64,000 bases of DNA from Pseudomonadota bacterium (GTDB lineage: Bacteria > Desulfobacterota > Binatia > Binatales > Binataceae), in assembly GCA_021323945.1 (NCBI GenBank), contig JAJPKA010000018.1, forward strand, positions 1 through 64,000. Direction: 5' to 3'. Position 1 is the stretch's first letter. Each line of letters begins with the position of its first letter. The translations under genes and the position numbers were made by a program. The notes beneath the pieces are model-generated. The model was not told the origin of the DNA, made no database searches, and worked only from the letters and a program-made list of their open reading frames with translations. Of the stretch, positions 39,805-57,339 are shown piece after piece.

Positions 39805-40506
39805 TCACCAGATATCCCCGCAGTAATTGCGGAATTCGCAACCAATGCAACGGCTGCGCGCAGCGGTTCGCGCCGGCAGTTCTTCCCGGCGGATACAGTT
39901 GCGGATTTCAGCTGCGGCCCATCTCACCGCATCCTTTTCTCGCGTGCCGATAGAGACGCCACTTAACTGGCGCGAAGGTACCAGATAGACGAATGCTCGT
40001 GTCACCTTGCGCGCGAGGGTCTCTTGGACCAGGAGCGCGTATGCGGCGAGTTGAATTCGATGGTTGTAGCGAACACCCCCGTCGGTATGCTTGAAGTCGA
40101 CCAGGTGACAACCGCGCTCGTGCAGAATCAAGAGATCGATCTTGCCCGAAAGGTTAAGGCTCGGAGAATAAAGCCACGTGCCGAATCGCCGCTCCCCGCG
40201 TTCCAGGCCGTAACGTTTAAAGCTGCGGCGTGTTTCGAGCGTTTCGACGGCCGCCTGGATAAGACGGCCACGCTCCATGCTGAAAGTGCGCACGAAATCG
40301 ACTGGCATTACATGACGGTAGTACGGAATGCGCGCGCAGTAAGCCCACTGTTTGAGGTCGGTCACGGTGAGCGGCGGGGTTGGGGCGCTGCTGGTTATAG
40401 CCGCACGACGCATGTCCGCAGTCGGCTTTGAATTGTGCCGCGACGTGGATTGCTTGCGGTGGCGCCGCCTTGGGGGCCGCGGTCTGGCCATGCGATCAGC
40501 GGTCAC
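39805..40506 (-). CDS. cas4: CRISPR-associated exonuclease Cas4
   Basis: The 233-residue RecB-family nuclease trims and orients prespacers before integration. A first Cys (C57, in YCARIPYY) and a C-terminal cluster C220-x2-C223-x5-C229 bind an iron-sulphur cluster. The catalytic core is GKIDLLI (D124), LVDFKHT (D137, K139) and the QLAAYALL motif (Q152). A basic, low-complexity stretch of about 45 residues precedes the domain, longer than usual. Its start overlaps the cas2 end by 11 bases. It is the last cas gene before the leader. Confidence 0.93.
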   Translation of the reverse strand: MTADRMARPRPPRRRHRKQSTSRHNSKPTADMRRAAITSSAPTPPLTVTDLKQWAYCARIPYYRHVMPVDFVRTFSMERGRLIQAAVETLETRRSFKRYGLERGERRFGTWLYSPSLNLSGKIDLLILHERGCHLVDFKHTDGGVRYNHRIQLAAYALLVQETLARKVTRAFVYLVPSRQLSGVSIGTREKDAVRWAAAEIRNCIRREELPARTAARSRCIGCEFRNYCGDIW

Positions 40507-40768
40507 CGGTTATTCGGATGATTTCGCACTTCGCAGCAAAGTCCCGTTCGCAGATTTGGAGCATCAGAATTTTGCCCTCATTGTCGCCGAGAGTCTGATC
40601 GAGGCGGGCGAACATCTCCTTGCGTCGAGTCGAATCGAGCGGACCGCTGAAGACGCTGTACTGGATATGGTCGAGCCCATAATCCTTGCAGACGTCGGCA
40701 ATTCGGAGCCGGATGCGGTCGCTCGTGATGTCGTAGATAACAAGGGTCAGCAGTTCCTGTCCGCGCAT
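40496..40768 (-). CDS. cas2: CRISPR-associated endoribonuclease/adaptation protein Cas2
   Basis: The 90-residue ferredoxin-like protein forms the core of the Cas1-Cas2 integrase. It begins with TLVIYDITSDRIRLRIADVCKDYG, where D13 is the conserved Asp after the first strand, followed by DHIQYSVFSG. Length is typical. Its ATG overlaps the stop of the upstream CARF gene by one base (TAATG). Cas1, its partner, lies about 8 kb upstream, on the other side of the type III genes. Confidence 0.96.
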   Translation of the reverse strand: MRGQELLTLVIYDITSDRIRLRIADVCKDYGLDHIQYSVFSGPLDSTRRKEMFARLDQTLGDNEGKILMLQICERDFAAKCEIIRITGDR

Positions 40769-42111
40769 TAGTCATTGCTGCCGCGAGAATCGGTAAATCG
40801 GTACTGGAAATTGGCGGTTTCCAGCCAGTCGTTGGCAACGTCAGGCGCCTCCTCGCGCAACAATTTCTCCAAGCGGTCGTAGGTGTCAGACAGCGATTGC
40901 AGAGATTGCTGATCGAGACGGTCGAAGCCGTGGATCAAAATACTGCTATTGCGGCTGTTGACCTCGGGACCGAGTTGCTTGAGCTGGTCGGCGAAGGGGT
41001 CGTTGAGACGGCCGAGCAGGCGGGCCGTTTGCTCGCGACCTGCCCGCAGATAGGTTCGACCCTTAAAGTCGAAGCTTTCAAGCGGTCGGCTGCCTTCTTT
41101 TTCCAGCTCCTCGCGCAGTTGCGCGACCGCTGGATTTTCGGGATCGAGGTATGACGAATCGAGCCGATGCGCGAACAGTCGGGTTTGACCGAGCATTTCA
41201 GCGATCCGGTAGGCCCTCAGGTTGGCATCCTCGAATTGCTCTTGCCGGATTCGACGGCGCCCATTGGCCAGCAAATCGACCATCAGGCGTCGCGCGTGAC
41301 GGGCCATTTCATCGAAGGCCTCGGGCAAAAGCGGCCGCTTAGAGTTTTTTTTGGGCGAATCACGGGCGAGCTCCGTTACCCAGGCAATCTCTTGAGGCCG
41401 AGGCTTGAAGCAACCGAACTGCGATGAGTCCGGCAGCTGCTCGGCTTCCTGGCAGGCGGTCGAATAGTCAAGTCGGTCCCAGGCCGAGTAGAATTTGGCG
41501 TAACTGCGCGCAGCGTGCAGTTCCGACAGAAGGTGATCCGGCCAGCCGCGGCCGTCGTCGTCAAGAATTTCGAGCACGGCAGCGAAATGGCAGGCTTGGA
41601 AGGCGTCGCGGGCCCGGTCGAGCTGCCGGCTCGCTGTCGCGATGGCCGTCTCAACCGTTCTGACGCGCTCGGTGCCTGGTATGACGACGCCTTGCTTGTT
41701 GGGGTCGCGATCGCCTTCGACGTAGCGGAGCCGCGGGATTTGGTTGCGCACCGCCGCGAGCGCAAGTGCAGCGCTCATGGCTTTGGTCCCGCGTGTAAAA
41801 TCGGCCTCGATCGCGTCGGGTGGGAAGCCGCTTTGGATCAACTTGCGAATCGAGTTATCGAAATGGCCGAAGCAGGCGTCTACGTCATTTTCATCGTCGG
41901 CGTTTGGGAGTGGCGCCACCTCAACCTGCAAATGAGTGAGGCGTTGCTTCAGCTCCTCAGCGTGTGTTTTGGTTTGCTGTGATGGCAGCAGAACAACTCG
42001 GCTAAATTGGCCCTCGCAAATGGACTTTAGGATGGGCCGATAAAGGCTGTCTTCCAGCTGGCAGGCTCTTCCGGTACCAACTGTTGCAGCTAGTGCGCGC
42101 GCCTGAGACAT
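40768..42111 (-). CDS. CARF-HEPN ribonuclease (Csm6-like, TIGR02710 type)
   Basis: This 447-residue protein is a likely cyclic-oligoadenylate sensor. The N-terminal CARF domain (about 1-160) carries the ligand-loop motif DFTRGTKAMSAALALAA at 104-120, typical of CRISPR-associated Rossmann folds. The C-terminal region contains RNSSILIHG, an R-x6-H HEPN nuclease motif with R387 and H394. Its general plan resembles the TIGR02710 (Cas02710) family more than classical Csm6. The gene follows csm5 and precedes cas2, so the nuclease would be activated by signal made by the Cas10 GGDD domain and would cut RNA non-specifically. Confidence 0.85.
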   Translation of the reverse strand: MSQARALAATVGTGRACQLEDSLYRPILKSICEGQFSRVVLLPSQQTKTHAEELKQRLTHLQVEVAPLPNADDENDVDACFGHFDNSIRKLIQSGFPPDAIEADFTRGTKAMSAALALAAVRNQIPRLRYVEGDRDPNKQGVVIPGTERVRTVETAIATASRQLDRARDAFQACHFAAVLEILDDDGRGWPDHLLSELHAARSYAKFYSAWDRLDYSTACQEAEQLPDSSQFGCFKPRPQEIAWVTELARDSPKKNSKRPLLPEAFDEMARHARRLMVDLLANGRRRIRQEQFEDANLRAYRIAEMLGQTRLFAHRLDSSYLDPENPAVAQLREELEKEGSRPLESFDFKGRTYLRAGREQTARLLGRLNDPFADQLKQLGPEVNSRNSSILIHGFDRLDQQSLQSLSDTYDRLEKLLREEAPDVANDWLETANFQYRFTDSRGSND

Positions 42112-42266
42112 ATGGTTACCCCTGTCCGAAATTAAGCTCGCGGAGCGAGCGCCAGTGGCAGCGCCCGACGCCGCCTCCAGTCAATCTGAAAGGGCTGTAT
42201 AAAAGTCGACGGGGCGCAGCCATTGAGTCGATAGATAGTCGGCACGGTCGCCGGAAAACGGACCAT

Positions 42267-43649
42267 TCAGGACTTTTTCCAGTACGGCTCCAACTCTGGA
42301 AATTTAGCGCGTGCCTCGGCCAAACGTTTTTTGTCATGGCCCCACACCTCGCTTATACGGCGCGCGAGCCCTTCGAGACGTGTGCCGCGCCGCTTCTCGT
42401 CCTGTTGGGCTTGTGCGTAGAGATGGGCCAGACTCCCCCAATCGGCGGGGCGAAGGTGACTGAGTCCCTGGATGAACAGGTCTTCGGGAAAAGAGACGGC
42501 GATAGGATTCGACGCTGGTGCTTCGGGCGGGGCAGGAGCTGCTGGCTGCACTGCTCGGTTCAGCTCGCCCGCGGTTTCAGCGGAAATGGGCTGCAAGGAG
42601 ACCCAGCCCAGGATATCGGATGGTTCGTGATTGCTTCCGGCGACGATTACTTTTCGGGTTTTCGGGCCGCGGGCGGAGGATTTTGGCAGCAAGCGTTGCC
42701 GCTCCTGTCCGTGGGGAAGGAGATCACCTGTCATGCTTCTCCATCCCGTGCCCCATCCGAGGCGCAGGAAAATGGTTTGCGGAGTAGCTTGCTTAATTTG
42801 CTGCTCGAGCCGTTCGAGCCGCGCAGTCAGGTTCGCGCCGATATCTTGGAAATACTGCAGATCACCGCGGAGCAAAAACCTGGAGTGCTCGCGGGACCAT
42901 TGTGAGATCCGCTCCCATGATGGCAGGTTATCGGTAAACAGTTCGGATTCGAGGTATCGATCTCCGAGGCGAATCGTGGCGGCGGCCGCGGATCCCGCGG
43001 CGAGAGCCTCGACTGCGGTTAAGGTATTGGTTTGCGTACCGGTTGCTTTGGTCAAAACAATAGTGGCGCAATCCATGGCGAAGACCACGTCCGCGACTGA
43101 ACATGCGCGCATCAGGTCGGCTTTGGCGTCGTTGCGATGTAATCTGGCTTGCTGGCGAAATAGTGCTTGTTCAAGGTCTAGCGCCGCGTTTTTTGAGCGG
43201 GTGTGAGCCTGGCGAGCGGCGGCTTTAAACTTCCGCTCGAGTTCGGGGCTCATCGGTTGGTGAGGCCCGCCGTTTCCGGCCCGGCCTGCGAAGATCAGCG
43301 TGCGCAGCGCGCCCTTCAGGGAGGAGCCGGGTATGAGCGGATTGCCGAGCGCGGAGCGGAGCAGGGCGCGAGTTTTCACCCCTTCGGGGACGGTTGCAGC
43401 AGCGTGAGTCCACACATACTCTTCAGCCTTCTTCCCCTGGAAAAGATCACGGATTTTGCTCCTCAGGGTGTCGAGGTCGCGCGCGAGCTGACCGATATCG
43501 GACAGCCGCTGAAGGACTCGCTCCGAGTTCAAGATAAAAGTTTTTCCGTTGCGGACAATGAAATCGATTCCGCTCACATATTCGATCCCGGAGCCAATGT
43601 GGACCGGGGTCAGGCAGGTCAGGCGGAAATGCTGCAGTCTGTCGCACAC
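42267..43649 (-). CDS. csm5: Type III-A CRISPR RAMP protein Csm5
   Basis: The 460-residue RAMP caps the crRNA 3' end of the Csm complex. It opens with FRLTCLTPVHIGSG and continues with PLIPGSSLKGALRTLIF, both standard RAMP/Csm5 patterns, and ends LEPYWKKS. The GTG at 43649 is chosen over the open frame upstream because GGAGG lies 10 bases before it and it follows the csm4 TGA by a single base. The middle (about 170-330) is poorly conserved. A 155-base gap separates it from the CARF gene. Confidence 0.9.
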   Translation of the reverse strand: MCDRLQHFRLTCLTPVHIGSGIEYVSGIDFIVRNGKTFILNSERVLQRLSDIGQLARDLDTLRSKIRDLFQGKKAEEYVWTHAAATVPEGVKTRALLRSALGNPLIPGSSLKGALRTLIFAGRAGNGGPHQPMSPELERKFKAAARQAHTRSKNAALDLEQALFRQQARLHRNDAKADLMRACSVADVVFAMDCATIVLTKATGTQTNTLTAVEALAAGSAAAATIRLGDRYLESELFTDNLPSWERISQWSREHSRFLLRGDLQYFQDIGANLTARLERLEQQIKQATPQTIFLRLGWGTGWRSMTGDLLPHGQERQRLLPKSSARGPKTRKVIVAGSNHEPSDILGWVSLQPISAETAGELNRAVQPAAPAPPEAPASNPIAVSFPEDLFIQGLSHLRPADWGSLAHLYAQAQQDEKRRGTRLEGLARRISEVWGHDKKRLAEARAKFPELEPYWKKS

Positions 43650-43650
43650 G

Positions 43651-44697
43651 TCAGCTGTTCCTCCATGCCAGCGGCAGGGTAAGAGCGCAGCCACAACGGT
43701 AGACGGCATAAGGCAAGCGGTTCGAGCGCAGCGTACACACACTATTGCCGTAGCGCGACGCTCCGAGATCACAGACGAGGCTGCCTTCGGCCAGCAGGTT
43801 GACCGTCTGGCGCCGGTTGACGCCTATGCCATTCAGCTCGGCCCATCCGCCACGGCCCACCAGACTGTAGGCGGCGGGCGATGCCAGCAGGCCCTGGAGG
43901 ATCTCGGCTTTGGTTGGATGCATGAGCGAGAGCAGGAGCCGTCGCCCGCTGCCGAGTTGCGGCTCAAAGCCATCGATCACCCGATGCAGCTCAAAGCGGC
44001 CACGGCCAATGGAGCGACCGCCGCCAATTCCTTCCATCCCCAGGATTCTGAGTGCGGTTTCGAAAGTGGGACGGTAACTCGGGTCGTGGAACTCAGCCAG
44101 AACAGTCAGGTAGACATCCTTGCGAAAGTAGGTTGATCCATATCGGAAGAGGACTCCTTCGGCGGCTGCGGCGGTAAACCGGTCGACCGCCACGCGCGGC
44201 GTCACTTCCCGTCGCCACAGATGTTGGCGCCAAATCGAGTCTATCGTCGGGTTGGAGTCGAAGGCCCCAGGTGCCGCGGGTGCCACGATTGAGCCGCGGT
44301 CGGACACCAGCAGGGCATCGGATGGCAACGCTCGCCCTTGCGCCAGTGCCCGAAGCGACTCAACCGTGGCAAAGCGTGCCCGGCGATAGGACTTCGGAAA
44401 ATCTCCATCATCGCGAGTACTTTGTCGGGACCAGCCAACGGGCAGGAAGAGCAGCACCTCGAAACGCTGGTTCCGTTCGAGCGTTGGCATGGCCGATGAG
44501 AGCACGAAGGGCGGCTCGACAGCGAGTGCTTCGATCTCGGCGGCCGTGGCTGAGGTGGCGCGATCCCAGACACTTAGAATCGCAGAGACCAAGGTATCGG
44601 AGCGCGGCAGATCCTCCAGGTCAGCCGGGTCGTCGTCGCGCCCGCCACTGAGATGAAAGGCGGAAAGCAGGCGCAGGATGTATTGAACCAGAGCCAT
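43651..44697 (-). CDS. csm4: Type III-A CRISPR RAMP protein Csm4
   Basis: The 348-residue Cas5-like RAMP of the Csm complex binds the crRNA 5' handle next to Cas10. Motifs include an N-terminal MALVQYILRLLSAFHLS, LPRSDTLVSAIL (typical of Csm4 group RAMPs) and the Gly-rich loop GIGGGRSIGRGRFEL. The ATG at 44697 starts one base after the csm3 TGA; the longer frame extends into csm3 and is rejected. Length is normal. It is translationally coupled to csm3 and csm5. Confidence 0.9.
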   Translation of the reverse strand: MALVQYILRLLSAFHLSGGRDDDPADLEDLPRSDTLVSAILSVWDRATSATAAEIEALAVEPPFVLSSAMPTLERNQRFEVLLFLPVGWSRQSTRDDGDFPKSYRRARFATVESLRALAQGRALPSDALLVSDRGSIVAPAAPGAFDSNPTIDSIWRQHLWRREVTPRVAVDRFTAAAAEGVLFRYGSTYFRKDVYLTVLAEFHDPSYRPTFETALRILGMEGIGGGRSIGRGRFELHRVIDGFEPQLGSGRRLLLSLMHPTKAEILQGLLASPAAYSLVGRGGWAELNGIGVNRRQTVNLLAEGSLVCDLGASRYGNSVCTLRSNRLPYAVYRCGCALTLPLAWRNS

Positions 44698-44698
44698 C

Positions 44699-45490
44699 TC
44701 AGGCGGCTGCGGCAAGATCTTCAACCGGCCAAATCAGGGGCGCTTTCATTTGGTTCTGCCGCAGCCCCTCCTTCAAAGCTTCTTCCGAGCGAAAGCATTC
44801 AGCCTTAAGCTCGAGGCGGTGATTGATTTCGAGCCGTACACGGCCATAGCCGCGGGAGGATTGCCCGCCCAAGGCATCGTAGGCGACAAGCCGCAATCCT
44901 TCCAGGATTAATTCCACGAATTTTTCTTCGGGATCTTGCTCGAAGAGGTTGAGGAGGAGCTCAAGGCTGAATTTGGAGCCGGCCGGTACGCGCTCAAAGT
45001 TGCGCGGGTTGGCCGCGCTGGTGAGCCGGTCAATTGCGACCTCGGTCTTCAGTTCGGTGAAATCGGTCGCCAGATTCGCCATTCGTTTCACTTGCTCGTG
45101 ATTGATCAGGGGTAAGTCGCGCACCAGCAAACGACTGGACTGAATCAGCTGACGTTTCTGATCGACCGCGATGCCGAATACCTGGCAGACGGTGCACTGA
45201 CCGCATTGACAGGGGCCGTGGGAACGCTCAGTGACGAAGCCGTCGCAACCCTTCGGGTTGCCATCGGCAACGGGGGCACAGTGGGCGCGCTCCAGGAGGC
45301 TGCGCATTTTGCCTTTCAAGCTGCTGCCGGGAATGTAGGGTGCGTTATCCTGCGGATTGCGGACGACGACTTTGTCGGCGCCGCCGATTCGGAGACCGAC
45401 TTCGCTGCCACCGATGTGCAAGCCGCTTACGGCGGTGATGGACCCCAGGAACAGCACTTTTTTGACGAGGCGAGGGGTTGGATCACTCAC
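44699..45490 (-). CDS. csm3: Type III-A CRISPR RAMP protein Csm3 (target-RNA nuclease)
   Basis: The 263-residue backbone subunit is present in several copies in the Csm complex and cuts bound target RNA every 6 nt. GLHIGGSEVGLRIGGAD contains the catalytic Asp (D39, aligned with D33 of Streptococcus thermophilus Csm3). PYIPGSSLKGKMRSLLE and GGQSSRGYGRV are standard motifs. A Cys-rich insert (CQCGQCTVCQVFG, about residues 94-106) may bind Zn. The start ATG overlaps the csm2 TGA (ATGA). The retained Asp predicts an active RNase. Confidence 0.95.
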   Translation of the reverse strand: MSDPTPRLVKKVLFLGSITAVSGLHIGGSEVGLRIGGADKVVVRNPQDNAPYIPGSSLKGKMRSLLERAHCAPVADGNPKGCDGFVTERSHGPCQCGQCTVCQVFGIAVDQKRQLIQSSRLLVRDLPLINHEQVKRMANLATDFTELKTEVAIDRLTSAANPRNFERVPAGSKFSLELLLNLFEQDPEEKFVELILEGLRLVAYDALGGQSSRGYGRVRLEINHRLELKAECFRSEEALKEGLRQNQMKAPLIWPVEDLAAAA

Positions 45491-45948
45491 TGGTTATCCT
45501 GCTCCTTTCGGGCGTAATGATAGGCGACTACTGCCTCAGCGAGGTCGCAGATGGCCTCAACCTTTTCCGCGGTAAGCTGTTTGACAGCGTCGTCAATGAT
45601 TTTCGAGAACCAGTCTCTAAGCGAGTCGGCATTACCGCCTCGCTCGCGTGCGGCGAGATAATGAACTCGGGCGCGATGCATCATCAGCGCGTTCGAGAAG
45701 GATTTGGGGTCAAAGTGGTGCCCGAGCTCCGCCCGCAGCCTAACAATCGGGCCGTAGAAATTGCGCATCTGGGTGCGGACAAGCCCCGCACAGGCTGTTG
45801 CGATCTTGTGCGCGGTGCGATCGATTTCAACCGCGTCGCGCTCCAGAATCCGCGAAACCCGTTGTTGGTCAACATTTTGCACAGTCTCGGCGGGCCGCCT
45901 ATCTATGGTGCGCGCGGCCGGCGGGGAAGATGGTCCTTGTCTGTTCAT
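45487..45948 (-). CDS. csm2: Type III-A CRISPR small subunit Csm2
   Basis: The all-helical small subunit of 153 residues contains GLVRTQMRNFYGPIVRLR, the best conserved Csm2 segment. ATG 45948 overlaps the cas10 TGA in an ATGA pattern, and its own stop overlaps the csm3 ATG likewise. A frame starting 11 codons earlier is inside cas10 and not needed. The N-terminal 30 residues are Pro/Arg-rich and likely disordered. It stabilises the RNA filament in the Csm complex. Confidence 0.9.
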   Translation of the reverse strand: MNRQGPSSPPAARTIDRRPAETVQNVDQQRVSRILERDAVEIDRTAHKIATACAGLVRTQMRNFYGPIVRLRAELGHHFDPKSFSNALMMHRARVHYLAARERGGNADSLRDWFSKIIDDAVKQLTAEKVEAICDLAEAVVAYHYARKEQDNQ

Positions 45949-48305
45949 GTGCTTCGCTCTCGGTTCAGCAAGTCGACCCATTCGGCTGCTGGCTTGAGCA
46001 GCTTGAGAATTGGTTCAGTCGCGGTGATTCCGTTGAGCCGGCAGTGGGCTAGCGCGTCGTAGAGTTCATGCAGTTTTTTACGGGCCTCAGGCGGCCCCAC
46101 GGCGCGCGCGACGGCATACGCGGCCAGCCACGCCCATTTTCCGCGGCGGACCGCAGCCGCTGCCTCAAGCGCAGTGTAAACCTCACCGAAGACTTTGGCC
46201 TCGCGCGCCGCGCAGGCGATGGCATGCAGAGTCCGTAAAGTAGCACGCGGCAGGAGTGGCTCGGTGCCGCCAAAGAGTTCCTGCAGGCGGTCGCGGCATT
46301 GTTTAAGCGCGGCAAAATCATGCCAATCAAGCACTTCGTCAAACAGGCAGATGGCGTCTTTGTCACGCGCCGCCAGATCGGACCGAAAGCGCCGGAAGCG
46401 TTTGGCGCGTTCCTCGGCCTCGCCGGCCCGCTGGGCAGCGGCAGCGATGGGGAACCTGGCGGGCACTATCTCGACGCCGGCCGAGATGCCCCAGACCGGA
46501 TTGTTGCCGGTAAATCGCGCAAAATCGGCCCGGATTCGCTCCGCGATCAGCGGAATTTTTGACCATGCACCAACGATAAAGACGTCGTCGCCCCCGGCGT
46601 ATATCACCTGCAGCTTGTCGCGGTAGGTGTCTTGGGCTTGGCGCTGCAGCTTGTCGCGGCAGGTGTCTGGGGCTTGGCTCAGCAGGTGTGAGAGGTAGCC
46701 GCCGAAGAAATAGCTCAGATGCCGAGACAGCGCTGCAACGCGTGCCAGACTAGCGTCATCCCCCAGGCCTTCGCGGAAGATGCGGCCGAGAGAGTCGACG
46801 TCCATACGCAGAATGCCGAGGCGTTTGATTCCCTGGGAGCGTCGGGCCAGCTCGTCAAAATCGAGGGCCTCGCCGTTGTCGCTCAGGGCGCGATTCAGTC
46901 CGGCGAGCCAAATTGCATGGCCGCAGGGGCCCTGCAGTTGAACGGGTGGTCGATTAACCCACAGCACCGTAGCTTGCGGCAGCGCGCCAGACGGCGGGCC
47001 TTCGCCATATAGGACGTAGTCGTCTGTGCTCACCGGGGGGCTGTAGCGGAATAGCGGTTGGCCGGCCGAGCCGATGTCGCGAGGCTGGCGAACTATGATT
47101 TCCGTGGCGGTGGCCCGGCGCCCCAGCTCCACGAAATCACGGCAGGCAGGGCAGGCCAGGCGCTCGCGATCGTCGTCCTCGCTAGACAGTGGCGCCAGCT
47201 GAGTCGACGGCATACCACAAACTTTGCACGCCTGCTCCCCGCCAAACGGATCGAACACTTGCTCGTAACTGGTTGTGAGCAGCGTCGAAAAGCGACGCTC
47301 TCGCCGGCGGGAAAGGTCTTCGGTAGCTCGATGCCACACCCGCGATGTCGCTTTGATGAGTTCCCTGGCGGTGGTCAAGGTCCATCCGATGCCGAAGGAA
47401 AGACGCGAAGCGAAGCTCTGGCAGAGCTCAAGATCGATCTGCTGGCTGAATGGCTCGAGTTGAGCCTCCGCCGCCGCGGGCATCAGCAGCCAAAATTTGC
47501 CGCCCCCGCTATAAAGCAAGCTGGTAACTGGCAGGTCGAAACGGGCGAGCAGACGGTTGGCGATCGCGTCTGCAATAAGTTGTAAACCAAGTGAGCGGCC
47601 GCGTAACATCCTGGCGGCTTTGGAAGTGACGATCGCGTAGAGGAAAGTCTGGATGCCACCAAGATCGCCTAGTGCAAGCAGCAGCGGGGTATTGAGGTAA
47701 TCGAGCTGCTCTACGGCTTGAGCGCCGGCGCCTATCGTCCCCACGATGGCGGCGACGCTGCGCGAGAATTCGAAGATTGACACGTCGCTGAACCCGGTTG
47801 CCGGCACGCTCCAGGCGTAAGTTTCCAGTGCGGTCAGAACGGTCTGCGCCAGCGCCGGCAGCTCGCCGCCGCGGAACTGGCCCAGTGCCTGGCTAAAAGC
47901 CGTGAAAAGCTCAGCGACTGACTGCGATTGGCCGGTTCCGTCCGTGGGAAAGATTTTGTCAGGCTGCCAGGCGATCGGCGCAAGCTGAGCCTGATACGGC
48001 CCCGTAGGGTTGAAAACCATCGAGAGCGGAGCCCGCATCCGCTCGACTGCGGCGCCGGCCGATGATGCGGCATCCCAGATTGCGGCAAGCAGGCGTCCGC
48101 CGGTGCTATCAGAACGATAGCTGCTCAGAGCAATCCGGATGACATCAGCGCCTCGTGGGTTAGCCGACAGCCACGGCAGCTGATCCTTCAGAAAGCGCTC
48201 GAGGCTTTCCAGTGGAGCGCTGCCAGAACCCGAGCGATAGCCGAACTCGCCAACGCCACGCAGCAAAGCCGCCAAAGCGTGCTCTACTGACCCATTCTCA
48301 CTCAC
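45945..48305 (-). CDS. cas10: Type III-A CRISPR Cas10/Csm1, cyclase intact, HD motif lost
   Basis: The 786-residue signature protein of type III systems starts at GTG 48305. The palm domain carries the cyclase motif GGDD at 571-574 (in VIYAGGDDVFIVG), needed to make cyclic oligoadenylates. A zinc-ribbon CKVCG and CPAC pair lies around residues 357-384. In normal Csm1 an HD motif sits in LLHDIGK near the N-terminus; here the aligned segment reads LLRGVGE (R16-G17), so the ssDNA nuclease is likely dead. A GAYLSH-type segment is absent. It should act as target-RNA-triggered cyclase rather than DNase. Confidence 0.95.
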   Translation of the reverse strand: MSENGSVEHALAALLRGVGEFGYRSGSGSAPLESLERFLKDQLPWLSANPRGADVIRIALSSYRSDSTGGRLLAAIWDAASSAGAAVERMRAPLSMVFNPTGPYQAQLAPIAWQPDKIFPTDGTGQSQSVAELFTAFSQALGQFRGGELPALAQTVLTALETYAWSVPATGFSDVSIFEFSRSVAAIVGTIGAGAQAVEQLDYLNTPLLLALGDLGGIQTFLYAIVTSKAARMLRGRSLGLQLIADAIANRLLARFDLPVTSLLYSGGGKFWLLMPAAAEAQLEPFSQQIDLELCQSFASRLSFGIGWTLTTARELIKATSRVWHRATEDLSRRRERRFSTLLTTSYEQVFDPFGGEQACKVCGMPSTQLAPLSSEDDDRERLACPACRDFVELGRRATATEIIVRQPRDIGSAGQPLFRYSPPVSTDDYVLYGEGPPSGALPQATVLWVNRPPVQLQGPCGHAIWLAGLNRALSDNGEALDFDELARRSQGIKRLGILRMDVDSLGRIFREGLGDDASLARVAALSRHLSYFFGGYLSHLLSQAPDTCRDKLQRQAQDTYRDKLQVIYAGGDDVFIVGAWSKIPLIAERIRADFARFTGNNPVWGISAGVEIVPARFPIAAAAQRAGEAEERAKRFRRFRSDLAARDKDAICLFDEVLDWHDFAALKQCRDRLQELFGGTEPLLPRATLRTLHAIACAAREAKVFGEVYTALEAAAAVRRGKWAWLAAYAVARAVGPPEARKKLHELYDALAHCRLNGITATEPILKLLKPAAEWVDLLNRERST

Positions 48306-48466: not shown

Positions 48467-49642
48467 TCACCACTTGAAAGAGAAGGCGCGATAGGGATCA
48501 CCGCCGCGCAGGAACGAGGCGAAATTCCGGGCTTGGATCTGGATCACAGATCTAAGTTGATGACGGCGGCCGCGGAAGGTCACTTCGCTCTCGAGGCGTT
48601 CCAAAACCGACGAGGCGACCATCCGCCGAGTGTTTTCCGTCAGCATTCCATCACGTGTTTCGAGCGCGCGGCCGCGACCGATTGAGGCAATCACCGCGCG
48701 GTCGACTACGGGTTGCCGGAACTCTTCGACCATGTCGAGCACCAGCGAGGGTTTACCGGGGCGGTCGACGTGCAGAAAACCGGCAAAGGGCTCGAGACCC
48801 GCATTCATGACCGCGCCCCAGACCTGGCTGTAGAGAATACCGTAGCCGTAGTTGAGCGCGGAATTCACCGGGTCAGGTGCGCCGCGATGGTCGCGTGACT
48901 CGAAGCCCAGATGCGCAGGAATCAGCAGTCGAACACCCCGCCAGTATGTACGGCCTGCCCGTCCCTCGATCGCCAGCAACTGCTCGCGGGCCTGATCGAC
49001 GGTCGCGTAGCTGACCCGAGCCGCTTCGGAGCGGTTTTTGCCGAGAGAGATAACCGATCTGTTCAGTGCGTCGAAGTGCGACGGGTCCGATTCCTTCAGG
49101 TACTTGCCGAAATACTTCAAGAGTGAGGCCTGGTTGGCGAGTTTGCCGCGCACAATTGCTTTCGCAAAGGTGACGCCGCGCTGGTCGTTGTAGGCGGCAA
49201 TTTGCTCACGCCGAGTGATAACGGTTGCGGTTAGCATCGGCGAACAGAGCATCGCGTAGGGCTTGCCTGAACGGGTCAGGAACGAAAGCCTTATCCCACG
49301 TTCGCAGCACGCTTCGACCAGATCCGCCGATAGACTGACGCCGGGTGAGCCGATGACGATCTCGCCGACGCGGAAGAGTGGTATTTCAACCTGGTCCGGT
49401 GATTTTTTGGGTGACGTGGCACCGGCACCGTCGGCCATGCGGCGCAGCGGAGGAGCGGGAGTTTTGGGACCGTCAGATGCGATGACCGCGAGGGTAGGGC
49501 GCTTGTGGTTAAGACCCAGAGGGAGCACAAGCTGAGGCCCCCCTTCGATCAACTCGAGCCGCGGCCTGGCTCCGCGGACGACCAGACGCTCCCCCGTCTT
49601 GCCCAGCGTTACGCCATAATCAGAAATAATGACAGAGTTCAT
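48467..49642 (-). CDS. cas1: CRISPR-associated integrase Cas1 with N-terminal insertion
   Basis: The 391-residue Cas1 starts at ATG 49642 (NSVIISDYGVTLGKTGERL); the longer frame has no family support. Metal ligands are E226 (LLAIEGRAGRTYW), H291 (FLHVDRPGKP) and D303 (LVLDMVEEFR). Between the first and second half of the N-terminal beta domain there are about 55-60 extra residues (from PRLELIEGGPQ to SPKKSPDQ), rich in Pro/Lys, absent from standard Cas1 of about 325-340 residues. It stands next to the type I genes and is separated from cas2 by the type III block. Confidence 0.95.
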   Translation of the reverse strand: MNSVIISDYGVTLGKTGERLVVRGARPRLELIEGGPQLVLPLGLNHKRPTLAVIASDGPKTPAPPLRRMADGAGATSPKKSPDQVEIPLFRVGEIVIGSPGVSLSADLVEACCERGIRLSFLTRSGKPYAMLCSPMLTATVITRREQIAAYNDQRGVTFAKAIVRGKLANQASLLKYFGKYLKESDPSHFDALNRSVISLGKNRSEAARVSYATVDQAREQLLAIEGRAGRTYWRGVRLLIPAHLGFESRDHRGAPDPVNSALNYGYGILYSQVWGAVMNAGLEPFAGFLHVDRPGKPSLVLDMVEEFRQPVVDRAVIASIGRGRALETRDGMLTENTRRMVASSVLERLESEVTFRGRRHQLRSVIQIQARNFASFLRGGDPYRAFSFKW

Positions 49643-50157
49643 CAATGCCCCCCAAAGCTGACCAAATTTATCGATATCTGCCAAACCAGGGAATCTCAGA
49701 ACCACCTCGCAAGGCAGGTTTTCGATTGCCGGTCACTTGCGGGGCGGAATGCTCAGGACAGCGTCGTTGGCATTCGTCCGCTAAAGGACCGATCGCTGCA
49801 AACGCCACGAGCGCAGCGTGTTGGCGGACGGCCTTTTCCTTGCACCGCGGGCGAGGCTTCGCGCGAAGTTCGGGATTCAACCGCGAGGACCAGGTTATCA
49901 AACCAACGTAGGCGCGGGCGGCAAGCAAACTGGGATTGGTGTCCTGCTGTTGCGCTCTTGGTAATCGGCGATTTCAGCGACCGTGATTTGCACTACCTCC
50001 GCGAGTGGTTCACGACGACACATCTCGGCAGAATAGCGGCAGGCTTTGACGCCTCGGCGAGGGCACGACGCTGATTTAAAGCAAGCAGAGAGTTTTGCTG
50101 AGAGCACCGGTCCAGGGGAATGTCCAAGGAATGTGACCGTCGAGCTTTGAATCAGGT
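49643..50157 (-). other. 515-base gap between cas5 and cas1, possibly a decayed gene
   Basis: No intact frame of significance spans this region; the two longest on the minus strand (69 and 86 codons) overlap and resemble no family cleanly. One contains SASCPRRGVKACR and the other NPELRAK and RRCPEHS, faintly like the N- and C-terminal Cys motifs of Cas4. With two frameshifts it could be a cas4 relic next to cas1, but this is weak. The intact cas4 lies elsewhere in the locus. Confidence 0.25.
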
Positions 50158-50964
50158 CTAGCGACTATACTGTGTAAAACCGGGGCCTTGATTAACGATA
50201 CCGACCGGTACAATGGTTTCGACAAAACGCCGGTGCCGATCACGTTTGGGTCGGTGCTGGGTGAATGAGCTTAGCGTCTCCAGGTCGGCCTCGGGACCGA
50301 AATCGTCGAGTGGTACGATATGGGCGTGGCGCGGCGGGCTCCATCCCCCGGCGCGGTTCACCGGCTGGGTAAACTCGGGACCGAGGGCAGTGCTCCGATA
50401 AAGCTGAAGGAACCGCAGGAAGCAGCCCCGCTTGCCGACGTAGGAGATATGCGGCAAAAGCTCCACGAGCCGCGCCGCCACGAGCTCCTCAGCGCCGGCA
50501 AGGTCAAACGCCCATTTGGTGGTCTGATTCAGATATGCCAGTTCACGGTAGGCGATGGTCGAACCATAGGGGCGCAAGGGGTCTCCGGCACGTGATTGCT
50601 GCCGGACTTTGACAAAGGTATGAGTCACGACCACTTTGGGTGCGGGCGCGATACGCACCTCCACGCCAGCGAGGCCCCGCAGTAGCGCATCGCACTGAGC
50701 CGCCGAAAGCTCGGCCCGGAAGCCAGCATCGACCAAGGCCATCTTGATCGAATAGGGAGTTGGTATAACCAGGGTTCGCCCCACAGAGCTGGTCGCTGAA
50801 CTGATCTTGAGCGAGAAGAGCGCCGTTGGCTCATACAGAGCAACGAGCCATCGGCCGGGCCCCGGTATCCCGGCCACGGGCTCGGGCGCTTCGAGCTTCG
50901 CCAGGCGTTGTGCAACTACCGCCTCGCTGGCGTTCGATTTCGGTCTGGTGAGCCTCTTGCGCAT
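50158..50964 (-). CDS. cas5: Type I Cascade protein Cas5
   Basis: The 268-residue RAMP protein caps the crRNA 5' handle in a type I effector. The segment KISSATSSVGRTLVIPTPYSIKMAL near residue 52 matches the Cas5 N-terminal region, and YGSTIAYRELAYLN and HISYVGKRGCF are consistent with the family. It is preceded by cas7 (5-base gap) and followed by the gap upstream of cas1. Arg/Lys-rich N-terminus of about 40 residues is unusual. Subtype assignment from Cas5 alone is uncertain. Confidence 0.82.
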   Translation of the reverse strand: MRKRLTRPKSNASEAVVAQRLAKLEAPEPVAGIPGPGRWLVALYEPTALFSLKISSATSSVGRTLVIPTPYSIKMALVDAGFRAELSAAQCDALLRGLAGVEVRIAPAPKVVVTHTFVKVRQQSRAGDPLRPYGSTIAYRELAYLNQTTKWAFDLAGAEELVAARLVELLPHISYVGKRGCFLRFLQLYRSTALGPEFTQPVNRAGGWSPPRHAHIVPLDDFGPEADLETLSSFTQHRPKRDRHRRFVETIVPVGIVNQGPGFTQYSR

Positions 50965-50969
50965 CCTCG

Positions 50970-51977
50970 TCAGTTCGGCAGCTCGAGGTTGTTGCAGAGA
51001 TCGGTCAAAATTTTCACTCCAGCTGACAGAGAGTCAAATTCCTGAACTTGTATACTGTTGGGCTTGATGCCGTTGAGTACGTCAGCGGCCCGCTTCATTT
51101 CATTGCGGTAGTCGCTGTGCAAAGGGCTCACCGTGGGTGCGGGCAGGGAGGACGCAGAGGTGCTTAAAACGCCCTTGCAGTCGACGATGTGAGGATTCTG
51201 GGTGTTGCGCTGGGCGCCTGCAGGTTTCAGCAAGGTAGACGCTATGGCCTGAATCAGAGCGACGGCTCGTTGGCATCGGTCCTCTGGTTTGACGACATAC
51301 TCTCGCGTGATGTCATTGAGGCCGATGCGGTACAGGTCAGCACTACAGATCAAGGCATAAATGCCTGACGAAGCCGGGCGGTGAAAGATGGCCTGCCGTC
51401 CGGCAGTAGTGTCAGCGCCGGCGGCGGTTCCGCGCCCTTCGGGTGCGTACTTGACGTGAAAATATTGCTCGGTAACGGTCAGCGGTCGACCCTGGCTATC
51501 CTCAGGGATACCGACCACCCAGCCGAACTCGACTACGGACTTGCGCCCGACGGCGCGGCCGCGGGTAACCAGCGCGCCGGCCATATCAGTGAGGCTGCAA
51601 TCGGTAAGCATCCTGGTCATGATTTCAGATTCGCGCGCCATACGCCGGACTGTCCTGCCGTTGTCGGTGAATTCCTGTTCGCGCTCGCAGAAATTCACGA
51701 ACGGCTGATTGAGAGCATTGATTCTGTCGGCGTCATGAATCGCCGCTCCGGGTGACAGGGGCTGTCCGGCTTCCTTTAGCAGCGGGACCAAATGCTCGAC
51801 GAGGATATGCTTGAACATGTCGCCGCTGATGGCGTTGACGATCGCCCGATGGCCATTCTGATCAATTATGTGTACCATTCGGGTCTGCTGCTGATTGCCT
51901 TCGGTGCCTTCGCTGTTGAGGTTATGAAGGTCGATTGTTACCTGAGCACACAACGACAATGAATTGATCCTGGCCAC
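50970..51977 (-). CDS. cas7: Type I Cascade backbone Cas7, DevR/Cst2 group
   Basis: The 335-residue backbone protein begins INSLSLCAQVTIDLHNLNSEGTEGNQQQTRMVHII and continues VNAISGDMFKHILVEHLVPL. Both are hallmarks of the Csa2/Cst2/DevR Cas7 group, found in I-A/I-B-like systems and in the Myxococcus dev operon. The start is GTG 51977 with GGAG upstream, 9 bases after cas8. It binds along the spacer part of crRNA. DevR-type Cas7 combined with a C-terminal-HD Cas3 is noteworthy. Confidence 0.9.
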   Translation of the reverse strand: MARINSLSLCAQVTIDLHNLNSEGTEGNQQQTRMVHIIDQNGHRAIVNAISGDMFKHILVEHLVPLLKEAGQPLSPGAAIHDADRINALNQPFVNFCEREQEFTDNGRTVRRMARESEIMTRMLTDCSLTDMAGALVTRGRAVGRKSVVEFGWVVGIPEDSQGRPLTVTEQYFHVKYAPEGRGTAAGADTTAGRQAIFHRPASSGIYALICSADLYRIGLNDITREYVVKPEDRCQRAVALIQAIASTLLKPAGAQRNTQNPHIVDCKGVLSTSASSLPAPTVSPLHSDYRNEMKRAADVLNGIKPNSIQVQEFDSLSAGVKILTDLCNNLELPN

Positions 51978-51986
51978 CTGGGTCTC

Positions 51987-53723
51987 CTAGTCTCCTTCTT
52001 CGACGGTTTGCAAGTCGTTCTCGGTCTCTGCGGGCTCTTCTTCGCGAGCTAGTCGGCACGATCCGTAGGCACACAACATTGGGCCCACCGTTGCGGCGCC
52101 ATGAGTCTCAATGAGCCGGATCAGTGATTCGAACTCCTCGGTCGTAACGTTGCGCGGAGCGGGCTTGCCCAATTCACGCCGCCGCGCGTTCTCGACGTTG
52201 TACAAAGAGATAAACTCTGAGATTGCCTGAACCAGCGGCTCATTTCCCGGGAGACTGGCTTTGCGCCTCAGGTCAGGTAAGAGGTCGTAACGGATTTCGC
52301 GGTAATCAGGACGATTCATTGCCTTCTGAGCTTGAGCGTTGACGGTAGCGGTGCGGATTGCAGCGGCGACCGCCTTAAAACCGGGTTCGGCCAGAACCGC
52401 ACTCAAGCTTTGATCGTGTGCCATAATCAGCTTCTCCGTATTAGCGGTGGTGAACTGTGGTATTTTGCGTCCCTGTTCGCGTCCCCGAAGAACAAGAGAT
52501 CCGTAGCGAGCCATGAAGTCGATGAGGATCGCAATTGCCTGGTCACCTCGAGTCTCAAGGAACCGGCGATACTGGATGAGCAGCCCGATCTCGTCCGAGT
52601 GATCATGACGCAATTCTCGAATGACGCGCTGATGCTCGCCGAGGATTGCAAGAAAAACGGAGGCGTCGTTTGGTTCCTTTAGGTTCAACCAACCGGGCAG
52701 AGCGACCGAGGAAATAGCGGACACGGCCTTGGCGTTACCTAAAGATTGGTAGTGGGTAACAGAAACCGCGGAGATGACGTCGGCGGGCGTCCTGCCCCGC
52801 ATTCGCTGAATCAAGGTCGGTTTATCCGCGTCGTGAAACTCCGCGGAGTAACGAATCAAGAGCTCAGCCAATTTGAGCGCCGCCAGGCTGTCAAGCTTGG
52901 GCGCCGCGGCGGGAAGCGAAATGTCCCGGAGCACCGCGACCACTCCGCGGAGCCCGTCAACGTCGATATCGCGCGGCACCGGACATAAAAGCCGCACGTG
53001 TTCGGCCCCATCTCCCTGGAAATACGGGCATGCGGCTGCAAAGTAGCCGCGGTAGCGAAGCCATTCGACAAAAGGATCGAGCCACTGCTCTTTGGTCTTG
53101 TCGTTACGATCAGTGCTGTCGGGCTTCAGCCGCGAATATCCCTTGGCTGCATTTGGAGCAAAGAGCTGGACGGAGGTTGCGGGCCAGTCGAGGCCAGAAG
53201 GTTCGAATCGCGATAGCGAACCGAGGGCCTTGGCAACCGCCTGACGGAACTCAGCCGTCGACATGCTCAGGATCTGCGCATGGACGCGATTGGTGGTCTC
53301 GTCACCCTGCAGCGTGTTAAGCACCTGAAGCAGACGCCAATCTGCCCGCGGTTCGTCCTGTTGGAGGAGTTGTTGGAGCTCGGCGCCCGCTGCTTTGCTC
53401 CTTTTTGCCCGCTGGAGCTTTCTGCGCCGATCCGCCTTGGCCTTTTCGGTCTTATAATCGACCAGGTCGAAGTCCCCCGCAGGAACCGCCGTCTTCTCGT
53501 TGGTCTTGAGAAATGGGTAGCCTGGCACTGGTGGAATACTATCGACGGAAGGCTGTGCCGTCCTCACCTCGAAGCCCAAGCCGGTATCGATGATTCGCAC
53601 TTCGGTCTCTACGGCCGTCTTAAGCAGGAGTGCCAGCCCCACCGCCGCGAAGATATCGCCGTGCGTACCAGTAGCCTTGGGAATCTCATAGCTGATGAGG
53701 TTTTGGTCGAGTTGCTCAGCCAC
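51987..53723 (-). CDS. cas8: Type I Cascade large subunit Cas8
   Basis: This 578-residue protein is assigned mainly by position, between cas3 and cas7, and by length. It contains ATGTHGDIFAAVGLALLL near the N-terminus (a pattern seen in several Cas8 proteins) and long helical regions, ending in an acidic tail. GTG 53723 is chosen as start because GGAG lies upstream and it overlaps the cas3 TGA by 8 bases; the frame upstream lies within cas3. It should recognise the PAM and start R-loop formation. Which Cas8 subfamily it belongs to was not determined. Confidence 0.75.
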   Translation of the reverse strand: MAEQLDQNLISYEIPKATGTHGDIFAAVGLALLLKTAVETEVRIIDTGLGFEVRTAQPSVDSIPPVPGYPFLKTNEKTAVPAGDFDLVDYKTEKAKADRRRKLQRAKRSKAAGAELQQLLQQDEPRADWRLLQVLNTLQGDETTNRVHAQILSMSTAEFRQAVAKALGSLSRFEPSGLDWPATSVQLFAPNAAKGYSRLKPDSTDRNDKTKEQWLDPFVEWLRYRGYFAAACPYFQGDGAEHVRLLCPVPRDIDVDGLRGVVAVLRDISLPAAAPKLDSLAALKLAELLIRYSAEFHDADKPTLIQRMRGRTPADVISAVSVTHYQSLGNAKAVSAISSVALPGWLNLKEPNDASVFLAILGEHQRVIRELRHDHSDEIGLLIQYRRFLETRGDQAIAILIDFMARYGSLVLRGREQGRKIPQFTTANTEKLIMAHDQSLSAVLAEPGFKAVAAAIRTATVNAQAQKAMNRPDYREIRYDLLPDLRRKASLPGNEPLVQAISEFISLYNVENARRRELGKPAPRNVTTEEFESLIRLIETHGAATVGPMLCAYGSCRLAREEEPAETENDLQTVEEGD

Positions 53724-56112
53724 ACGTCCACTCCGAGGTCGCCCGCTGGTCTGAAAGGCGAACGATGCGCATAAGATATGCCACGAGCGGCCACCAGCGT
53801 GCGAGCTTTGCTCGGCCGGTAGTGGCATCCAGACATTGCGAGAGAAGTCCTTTTTTGTCCGAATACTTTGCCAGTTCGGTCACATTTTTCTCATGGGGAC
53901 GGCAGCCTGTGCTTTGCTCAAGCATCACTTTCCAACCAGCGATGAAAGGGAAAATCCCCAGGTCCAAACCGCTATCGCCGGGTAGGAACCCGCCATGATG
54001 GGAGACGATCGCGGCCAGCGATGCGGAAACGATGTGAAACCTCATGTTCTCCGGAAGCCCCGAGTACAGGTCTTCCAGCACACTGAGACTCCAGTACGCA
54101 CTGGCCACAGCATGGGGCGGCCGGCGCTTTGGCAGTGAGCGCTCGCGTTGGCGATCCGAAGGGTTGTCGGGATCGAAATCCGTGTGCGCCAGCGGCACTG
54201 TCATCCGATATGAGGGATCCTTGGAGGATTGAATAGCCTTCGCCCATTCCTGCCATGGCATCTGGAGTTTGCCGAGATCGTGTAGCGCCCCAGAGGCGCG
54301 CGCAGCGACTCTTAAATGATTGGGCGACAGTCCGTAGCGGCGCGTGAGGCCGGCGGCGAGTAGAGTGCCGGGGCCACCCTGACGAGCGACGCGGCGTTCG
54401 GCTTCGCTCGCCACCATTCGCGCGTGATTCAGCCACGACTCCTCGCGCAGAGGTGCATAGCCGGGTCGTTTTGGCTCGACCCGCCGGGGGCTGACTATTT
54501 TGCCCGGCAGACCGAGACGCAAGCCGCAATCCGCATCGTAGCGCGCCACTCGCGGGTCGAGGCATACGGCGTAGGTTGCCGCTAATTGAGAGGAGCTGGT
54601 CAGTGGTTTCCACGGGGAATCGTCGGTGCCATCCCAGTACCATCCCCGAGCGTCCGCGCAGTTAAGGTGCGGCGCCAGGGACCATCGAGGAAGGGAAATT
54701 GACTCTCGTTGTCCCGGCGTCTGTGGCAGATCCTCTTCTGCGCTGATGAGTGCGCGGATGCTTTCATTGTCGTCGCCGCGAATCAGGTGAGCTACGCCGG
54801 CGCTGTTGCGTCGCACCGCAATTTGAAAGACAAGGTCCAGAACATCCTCTGTCCGAGACTGCAAACCGGGCCGCACCGCTTGCTCATCATCCTTTGCGTG
54901 AACTTGTTGGATCCACTCCTCAAGCAGAACCGGATCAAGGCGAAGCGAGCGAACTCCGGAAAGCAATTCACGCGTGCGTGCAAGAACCGTCGCCTCGCCG
55001 TCAAGATTTCCGTAAGGGAGCCAGGCGCGGGAGACAGCTGGCAAAGGATGGACGTGAACTGTGCCTCTCTGGCCGGGAAACCTGGCGCATCGGCCCGCCC
55101 GCTGGACGAGCGAATTCATCGGACAAAGCTCCGTATGTAACTGATCGCAGGAGATGTCGAGCCCCGCCTCGATCACCTGAGTGGCGACCAGAATCGCTTG
55201 CTCCCCGGTAGCCTTTGGGCCAAAGAGCGAATTCACGAGAGTTTCTTTTTGCCGCCGATCGGCTTGAAAGAAACGCGAGTGCAGGAGGATGAGCTGGATG
55301 GCAGAGCCGACACCCAGCTTCTCACGCAAGGCATCGAACAGTAACTGGGCGCGATCGACAGTGTTGACCAGCGCAATCGAACGCCCATTGAAGTTGTTCA
55401 GGATGGATTGCGCGGTCAGCGGTTCGCATTCGCAGACCAGCGTGCGGGTAACCGAGGTGACTGCAGGCAGCGAATCGAGCAGCGCTCGTTCTATCGTTGG
55501 ATCTTCCGGCACCGTGATCACATCGAGTACCGAGCGCAGCATATTCTGGAGTGGCGCGGTGGCGGTCGCCGTCATCCATACGGACTGACACAGATCTTTG
55601 AACAGATGCGTCCCGGCGACCGCGGTAAGGAAAGCCTGATCGGGCGCCATCAGATGGAACTCATCGAGAATAACCAGGGCGCCCGCAATCGTCGCGGCAT
55701 TGACATTGTGTAAGCGAGCGGAGAGACCATAAGGAGCGCACAGCAGTCCGCTCAAGATCTGGTCGTAGGTAGTAATAATCACATCGCCTCGGTCGAAAAA
55801 GGGGTCGTCGGGCTGGTCCCCGGTCTGCAGGGTCACGGACCTGCCTAGCTTGAGAGCCAGGCTCTCGGCTTCGCGGTAAATCCCCTGGGCAAGAGTGCGA
55901 AGCGGGAGGGCATAGATGAGGCGGCAAGGCTTGGCTTTCCATCCTTCAGCGAAGAAGGGCGCGAGCACCGCAAGCGTCTTGCCAGCACCGGTGGGCGCGC
56001 GCAGCAGGAGATTGCGTCCTTCGAACAACCGACGCGCCACGCGCAGCTGATAATCGTGTGGAGAAAAGGAAGTCAGAGCTCGAAAATGACGCCTGTAGTT
56101 CTCCTCATCCAT
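53716..56112 (-). CDS. cas3: CRISPR-associated helicase/nuclease Cas3, HD domain at C-terminus
   Basis: The 798-residue protein unwinds and degrades DNA recruited by Cascade. The helicase comes first: Walker A APTGAGKT (39-46), DEFH box (150-153), TAT (181-183), QVIEAGLDIS (312-321) and QRAGRCARF (337-345). The HD nuclease is C-terminal (about 555-730) with H563, H611-D612 (ALHDLGK), H643 and H705-H706 (VSHHGG). Most Cas3 proteins carry HD at the N-terminus; C-terminal HD is known in few subtypes such as I-G. All catalytic residues appear present. Confidence 0.95.
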   Translation of the reverse strand: MDEENYRRHFRALTSFSPHDYQLRVARRLFEGRNLLLRAPTGAGKTLAVLAPFFAEGWKAKPCRLIYALPLRTLAQGIYREAESLALKLGRSVTLQTGDQPDDPFFDRGDVIITTYDQILSGLLCAPYGLSARLHNVNAATIAGALVILDEFHLMAPDQAFLTAVAGTHLFKDLCQSVWMTATATAPLQNMLRSVLDVITVPEDPTIERALLDSLPAVTSVTRTLVCECEPLTAQSILNNFNGRSIALVNTVDRAQLLFDALREKLGVGSAIQLILLHSRFFQADRRQKETLVNSLFGPKATGEQAILVATQVIEAGLDISCDQLHTELCPMNSLVQRAGRCARFPGQRGTVHVHPLPAVSRAWLPYGNLDGEATVLARTRELLSGVRSLRLDPVLLEEWIQQVHAKDDEQAVRPGLQSRTEDVLDLVFQIAVRRNSAGVAHLIRGDDNESIRALISAEEDLPQTPGQRESISLPRWSLAPHLNCADARGWYWDGTDDSPWKPLTSSSQLAATYAVCLDPRVARYDADCGLRLGLPGKIVSPRRVEPKRPGYAPLREESWLNHARMVASEAERRVARQGGPGTLLAAGLTRRYGLSPNHLRVAARASGALHDLGKLQMPWQEWAKAIQSSKDPSYRMTVPLAHTDFDPDNPSDRQRERSLPKRRPPHAVASAYWSLSVLEDLYSGLPENMRFHIVSASLAAIVSHHGGFLPGDSGLDLGIFPFIAGWKVMLEQSTGCRPHEKNVTELAKYSDKKGLLSQCLDATTGRAKLARWWPLVAYLMRIVRLSDQRATSEWTCG

Positions 56113-56184: not shown

Positions 56185-57339
56185 TTAAACGCTAATACGA
56201 TACTGTCCCAGGCCGAACGTCGCGCCGTGGCCGACGTGGACCAGCTCCCCAAATTTCAGAAACTTCCAGAAGGGTGCAAAATCGCCCTTGTAGGTTGCCG
56301 GGCCGATGATTCCTTCCCATTCCATCCGGCGGTCCTGGCGTGAACTGTAACGCTCCCACTTCGTCCACCGGGTTTGGTTCCGAACCAGCTGGATCGATGC
56401 CGCCTCATCGATTAAGCCGCGAAAATCGATATCGAGCGGGGTGCCGCAGTGGAAGCGTGCAAGGGATGACAATCTACCAAGAAGCCGGCGAAACACGACC
56501 TGGAATTCGGGGTGGCGGATAAACCGGCCTGCATGCTTGAGACGGGTCTGAGTGAGAAATTCGATAGTGACGGGTCCGGACGGAGCTACCAGAGCCGCAT
56601 ACTCCTCCAGCGTCGTGCTCGGTGCGGCGCCTCGTACCAGATTATCGGTCGCATCGTAGACAATTTGGTGTGAGATCCCGAGATTCTGCCCGCAAGGTGC
56701 AGATGTCAGCTTCTGTCCGACTGAGCAGCGCTCCACCTCGACTCGCTTGTCGTTAAAAGAGCGTGGGCTCAGCGGTTCGCGATCCGCTGCCTTGCAATCC
56801 ATCGGAGACGACGACTCGGAATCCTGCCAAATGCCCGGTAGAGCTTCGATGCGATCCAATTCGACCAGGTTGGCGCCGCGTCCAATCTTTGTGATCTCAC
56901 GCAGCGCAACTACGAAGTAGGGAAAGAACTCCTGGGCTCGACCGATAAGGACCAGGTCGAAAAAGAGTTTATCGCCGGACTCGAATCGCTGGCGTCGGGC
57001 TGCTGGTATAGGCTGCCTCCGTGCCGGAGCAATCACGAACGGGCGGGGAATGTCCTCGTGGGTGCGCAGGGCTGCGGCCCTGGGCGGCGGTGAGGTTTCG
57101 AAAATTAGATGATACGGACACTGGTTCGGAATCGGACATTTACCGCCGACCGCAGGACAGGCGACGGTGCGGAAGGCATGACCGAAAGCGCCACGTAACG
57201 TCGACCCAAGATAGGACGGCAGGTCAAGCGGTTCCCTGGCGACAAACGTGACCCGGTAGCGGCTGACGGAGAGGGAAAGTGACGTCTTCACGGTTAGCAA
57301 CGATGAGCCTGCTCTAGATTCCGAAATGAACAATGTCAT
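56185..57339 (-). CDS. cas6: CRISPR RNA-processing endoribonuclease Cas6
   Basis: The protein of about 384 residues has the RAMP fold of the Cas6 family. An N-terminal RVTFVAREPLDLPSYLGSTLRGAFGHA and a Cys-rich segment (CPAVGGKCPIPNQCPYHLIFE) match Cas6 proteins of the C-terminal-RAMP (pfam10040) group. The C-terminal Gly-rich GPATYKGDFAPFWKFLKFGELVHVGHGATFGLGQYRI carries the RNA-binding loop. ATG 57339 is taken as start; TTG 57414 and GTG 57291 are alternatives and no ribosome-binding site settles it. It opens the cas run and likely makes crRNAs for both effectors. Confidence 0.88.
   Translation of the reverse strand: MTLFISESRAGSSLLTVKTSLSLSVSRYRVTFVAREPLDLPSYLGSTLRGAFGHAFRTVACPAVGGKCPIPNQCPYHLIFETSPPPRAAALRTHEDIPRPFVIAPARRQPIPAARRQRFESGDKLFFDLVLIGRAQEFFPYFVVALREITKIGRGANLVELDRIEALPGIWQDSESSSPMDCKAADREPLSPRSFNDKRVEVERCSVGQKLTSAPCGQNLGISHQIVYDATDNLVRGAAPSTTLEEYAALVAPSGPVTIEFLTQTRLKHAGRFIRHPEFQVVFRRLLGRLSSLARFHCGTPLDIDFRGLIDEAASIQLVRNQTRWTKWERYSSRQDRRMEWEGIIGPATYKGDFAPFWKFLKFGELVHVGHGATFGLGQYRISV

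Follow-up and report, generated by a model that had tools for sequence, protein, structure and literature searches.

In a complete type I-A locus, cas1 and cas2 are separated by a type III-A CRISPR module, whose Cas10 retains the GGDD cyclase motif alongside a degenerate, shortened HD domain. Our preferred reading, to which we assign a probability of roughly 75%, is that the HD nuclease was lost on the lineage of this locus itself and that the module now serves as an RNA-cutting and signalling arm, with guides that are probably shared with the type I-A arm. The window, that is, the whole stretch of DNA analysed, is 64,000 nucleotides long and belongs to a genome assembly with an estimated completeness of 95.5%.

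The cas genes occupy 39.8–57.4 kb and lie on the minus strand throughout, in the order cas6, cas3, cas8, cas7, cas5, cas1, cas10-csm2-csm3-csm4-csm5-CARF, cas2, cas4 and a 67-repeat array. The module begins with cas10/csm1 (45945..48305; 786 aa from a GTG start; TIGR02578, 455.6 bits against a cut-off of 170) and continues with csm2, encoding Cas11 (45487..45981; TIGR01870, 42.7 bits against a cut-off of 30.6; PF03750), csm3, encoding a Cas7 protein (44699..45490; TIGR02582, 201 bits), csm4, encoding a Cas5 protein (43651..44724; TIGR01903, 118.7 bits), and csm5 (42267..43772; TIGR01899, 60 bits against a cut-off of 38.3). All five Csm subunits exceed the curated family cut-offs, which identifies the module as type III-A (Csm). 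The last gene of the module encodes a CARF–HEPN effector (40768..42111; TIGR02710, 115.5 bits) and its stop codon overlaps the start of cas2 (TAATG). Downstream lie cas2 itself (40496..40768; 90 aa; PF09827, 62.8 bits), cas4 (39805..40506; TIGR00372, 93.9 bits against a cut-off of 65) and the array (34703..39704), which is putatively transcribed from the minus strand.

All parts of a full type I effector were found at this locus. Beside cas1 (48467..49705; TIGR00287, 239.5 bits) stand cas5 (50158..50964; PADLOC Cas5a, 166.7 bits), a cas7 of the DevR/Csa2 type (50970..51977; PF01905, 187.4 bits), cas8 (51987..53828; PADLOC Cas8a, 155.8 bits), cas3 (53716..56112; TIGR01587, 153.5 bits) and cas6 (56185..57414; PF10040, 68.9 bits; PADLOC Cas6, 300 bits). 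A motif scan of Cas3 recovered GKT44 (Walker A), DEFH150 and HDLGK611, with H611-D612 encoded at 54277-54282. Cas8a, Cas5a and the Csa2-type Cas7 are the subunits that mark type I-A, and NCBIfam models gave no match for Cas8 or Cas5 of the window. Archaeal I-A systems have a split Cas3, with a Cas3' helicase and a Cas3'' HD protein; the Cas3 of the window is one protein, helicase then HD. We accordingly filed the type I arm as I-A-like by its effector subunits and as a putative bacterial variant.

The sequence-only reading had placed R16-G17 at the position of the Cas10 H-D pair, and alignment with five relatives both established this replacement (codons CGT GGC, 48255..48260) and extended it to the remaining ligand motifs. 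The segment ALAALLRGVGEF of the window corresponds to LAALLHDVGKF in the relatives, the YHHAAYT segment is deleted, AARHHKPS has become ALSSYRSD with the loss of both histidines (HH to SY), and the EAD of the EADRLSAG motif reads AAS. The domain as a whole (residues 1-127; 47925..48305) is degenerate by both length and identity, having 127 residues as against 182-201 in the nearest relatives; Pfam HD (PF01966) scores above cut-off in both of those relatives and has no match in the Cas10 of the window. With the HD motif and the metal ligands missing from the N-terminal domain, the module falls outside type III-A with an HD nuclease, and its Cas10 is predicted from these residues to be unable to cut DNA. 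A frameshift or wrong start masking the motif was ruled out, as the replacement segment is in frame with recognisable flanks; only seven codons, with no start among them, lie upstream of the GTG of cas10. An AlphaFold2 model of Cas10 from a single sequence was uninformative (mean pLDDT 39). The H-D site might in principle have been displaced or rebuilt elsewhere in the N-terminal domain, which the earlier reading had named as the outcome that would overturn it, and the alignment revealed no such pair. H9 is the single histidine in residues 1-324, the next being H325, whereas the matching region holds six histidines in one close relative (G024) and ten in another (G030). Given also the loss of the other ligand motifs and the shrinkage of the domain, a displaced site is very unlikely, and we regard its probability as negligible.

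In contrast to the HD domain, the remaining parts of the module that the sequence-only reading had listed as intact proved to be so. The Cas10 zinc ribbon (C360-x2-C363...C385-x2-C388; 47142..47228) and the GGDD motif (residues 571-574; 46584..46595), the latter aligned to PDB 6kc0, fall in invariant alignment columns, and D502/D504 are retained. Csm3 keeps D39 (codon at 45374-45376), which aligns with the aspartate of IGGTD/IGGID in solved Csm3 structures. In the CARF protein, R387-N-S-S-I-L-I-H394 (40930-40953) aligns with RNSALLVH of a solved Csm6 (5fsh), and the combination of a CARF domain with a HEPN domain bearing R-x4-6-H (TIGR02710; PF09670, Csm6 HEPN) is that of a Csm6/Csx1-like RNase. 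From these residues we predict a type III arm capable of RNA cutting and cyclic-oligoadenylate signalling without DNA cutting, bearing in mind that a GGDD motif by itself is no proof of Cas10 cyclase activity.

Loss of the HD nuclease could alternatively be the first step towards loss of the whole module, with the complex already inactive. Two observations fit such decay. A related genome (G031) contains a III-A remnant (L040 7661-8905) with an HD-bearing Cas10 of 415 aa that lacks GGDD, together with csm5 and a CARF gene, and csm2-csm4 had no match there; and cas10 of the window carries a 36-nt in-frame tandem duplication (46608-46679; 92% alike), not present in relatives, which inserts some 12 residues immediately ahead of the strand bearing GGDD. 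Against this, the reading frames of all five csm genes and of the CARF gene are open, their catalytic residues persist, and the part of Cas10 outside the HD domain has evolved no faster than in HD-bearing relatives, so that we consider ongoing decay improbable.

The timing of the loss is indicated by the closest relatives, all of those compared being MAGs. The Cas10s of the window and of two further genomes (G030 and G024) form a fully supported clade in which both other members have an intact HD domain, and their overall identity to the window protein is 39% and 36%. Within the HD domain, the window protein shares 25-31% identity with these relatives, which share 56% with each other; over the rest of Cas10 (205-end), the corresponding values are 38-44% and 42%. 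Branch lengths outside residues 1-204 are 0.80 for the window as against 0.58 and 0.86 for the relatives. Faster evolution across the whole protein was therefore ruled out, the excess being confined to the HD domain, and this pattern indicates that constraint was lost there while the rest of Cas10 remained constrained. Since the two nearest relatives are standalone III-A loci with an intact HD, the simplest reading of the alignment is that the HD was lost on the window's own lineage. Additional Cas10 relatives were sought with a single-protein search of genome contigs and an alignment search of viral contigs, and neither returned any. In the standalone III-A locus of G030, the array repeat core matches that of I-A arrays (L035 580-916) and the Cas6 is close to I-A Cas6, although the genome yielded no I-A Cas8.

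Guide supply also points to a connection between the two arms. The cas6 at 56185..57414 is the only one found in the locus, with none beside the III-A module; the 67 copies of the repeat found in the assembly all lie within the one array, no second array with the same repeat being found; and the repeat core GATGAGGAGGGGACTGAAA is common to this array and the I-A arrays of relatives. The crRNAs of a single array and Cas6 are thus probably shared by the III-A and I-A complexes. Searches of phage and plasmid collections gave no protospacer match for the array, and hence no PAM or strand evidence. Inside the array, a plus-strand match to Rfam Hammerhead_II (38963-39071; 37.8 bits, cut-off 37) is probably a chance product of the repeat sequence.

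On the preferred reading, a catalytic pair replaced, further ligand motifs lost and a shortened domain would sit within a complex otherwise under ordinary constraint. A crRNA in the Csm complex would pair with foreign RNA, upon which Csm3 would cut the target RNA, and the Cas10 palm domains would produce cyclic oligoadenylate that switches on the CARF–HEPN RNase, in line with established type III biochemistry. The same array and Cas6 would supply crRNAs to the I-A complex, for which Cas3, judging from its intact motifs, would cut DNA, and Cas3 may in turn have made the Cas10 HD dispensable. The division of labour proposed earlier, in which the type III arm leaves DNA cutting to Cas3, thus stands as far as the predicted activities go; its causal part, that Cas3 brought about the loss of the HD, is only weakly supported by the comparisons that follow.

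In support of the causal part, the HD is missing from each of the two III-A modules nested in I-A loci of this family (2/2) but present in two complete standalone III-A relatives, and the III-C modules at the same junction, described below, have neither HD nor GGDD; the lack of a cas6 beside the window module and of a second array with its repeat counts on the same side. The second nested III-A module belongs to G025, whose Cas10 has 513 aa and no HD domain; this protein and the Cas10 of the window lie on widely separated branches of the Cas10 tree, in which the G025 protein has a long branch and an unsure position. Of the 76 full-length III-A Cas10s sampled from the window's phylum, 72 have an HD, which indicates that its absence from the window is not random noise, and absence in nested modules (2/2) differed from that in the others (4/76) with a Fisher p=0.005, a post hoc value that ignores kinship. 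No Cas3 was found around the sampled III-A Cas10s of this phylum in fetched stretches of up to 20 kb, a range beyond which a locus may reach. An HD is likewise missing from two III-B Cas10s (L071 and L087) that neighbour a type I system of this I-A type.

A partnership with type I is nevertheless not needed for the loss. In a second phylum, to which the genome with L071 belongs (its contig is titled Chloroflexi), 15 III-A loci encode a complete Cas10 without an HD domain, and a search of their surroundings, for the most part some 9 kb in each direction, found no Cas3. Cas3, scored by a profile built here or by TIGR01587, occurs somewhere in the genome in 11/15 HD-less cases (one of these 15 Cas10s being cut at a contig end) and in 12/17 HD-bearing ones (p=1); in the window's own phylum, 38/55 genomes with an HD-bearing Cas10 also have a Cas3. 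These loci and counts show that HD loss requires no type I partner and that a distant partner does not cause it, and a general rule by which a type I neighbour causes HD loss was ruled out. The explanation that couples the Csm module to I-A is weakened accordingly, as HD-less III-A is frequent with no Cas3 nearby. Moreover, the comparison contains only two nested III-A cases, and the window genome has at least two other Cas3 loci (L261 13-1200; L261 7212-9866; L260 913-3693). One of these additional loci, on contig 11, is accompanied by a separate array of 20 copies of a different repeat and looks like type I-E. A link of HD loss to nesting itself is possible.

The same survey data suit an explanation in which the HD was lost irrespective of any type I neighbour, because cyclic-oligoadenylate signalling suffices or because a DNase is costly. 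HD-less, cyclase-positive Cas10s are already known and common: a Cas10 without HD but with palm residues had been described by 2011 (PMC3150331), and in a published survey 39% of type III loci, and 65% of those of subtype III-A, had an HD, as against 92% with a cyclase (PMC11229360). In the window's own family, however, the HD persists in two complete standalone III-A loci that have a CARF gene as well; possession of a CARF effector was thus not enough to make the HD dispensable in them. On balance we place this explanation a little short of even odds.

The setting of the module is less expected than the loss of the HD, as is the presence of different type III modules at one junction. Two relatives (G023 and G031) have cas1, cas2 and cas4 in direct succession, whereas four related genomes carry a type III module between cas1 and cas2 (window 40496-49705; L057, L062, L100). 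The inserted module is of type III-A in the window, where it shares the strand of the I-A genes, and also in G025, where it is inverted; in G018 and G024 it is of type III-C. Interrupted and uninterrupted loci are interleaved in the I-A tree. Because the modules differ in subtype and orientation, these data mean that insertion at the junction took place on more than one occasion; the simplest count, from a small tree, is at least three separate insertion events. The open-licence literature searched contained no published account of type III modules at the cas1|cas2 junction. In both nested III-C modules the Cas10, a Csx11 protein (L054 4749-7772; L100 5247-8309), reads HM where HD would be expected and lacks GGDD; by sequence, then, both of its active sites look dead. 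The clade with HM for HD also occurs in other loci, including some close to type I cas3/cas1 (G286 and G106), and nesting alone does not explain the dead III-C HD. More tentatively, and as a proposal that we think rather doubtful, the junction may be a site at which type III modules dock and can be exchanged for one another, and nesting there, with guides shared with an active Cas3, would lead to DNase-less Cas10s, adding an RNA-sensing alarm arm to a DNA-cutting one.

Within one bacterial family, these loci provide a paired set of nested HD-less and standalone HD-bearing III-A modules, and the pairing makes it testable whether a type I partner renders the Cas10 nuclease dispensable; the loss of the HD by itself, being common without a partner, is no evidence of a type I partnership. 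The standalone members (G030 L035 and G024 L036) share with the window the Cas10 clade and the order cas10-csm2-csm3-csm4-csm5-CARF but have an intact HD (LLHDVGKF) and their own cas6 beside the module, and on their contigs of 10 and 15 kb no surrounding type I locus was seen. The III-C Csx11 modules occupy the same junction in the same I-A family and likewise lack the HD, but they differ in subtype and, having no GGDD, would not be expected to signal. The III-B system of Vibrio metoecus (PMC8682760) and systems in the survey (PMC11229360) resemble the window in combining a nuclease-less Cas10 with a cyclase and an ancillary effector; relative to systems of the Vibrio type, the window is distinguished by a recognisable short HD remnant and by nesting within a complete I-A locus. 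The nearest parallel for the proposed guide sharing is the Marinomonas type III-B system, shown experimentally to co-opt type I-F crRNAs and described together with chimeric III-B/Cas6f loci (PMC5576922). There, as is probable here, a type III effector depends on the crRNAs and Cas6 of a type I system, but the Marinomonas system showed DNA interference, whereas the Cas10 of the window is predicted to be unable to cut DNA, its partner is type I-A and its module lies between cas1 and cas2.
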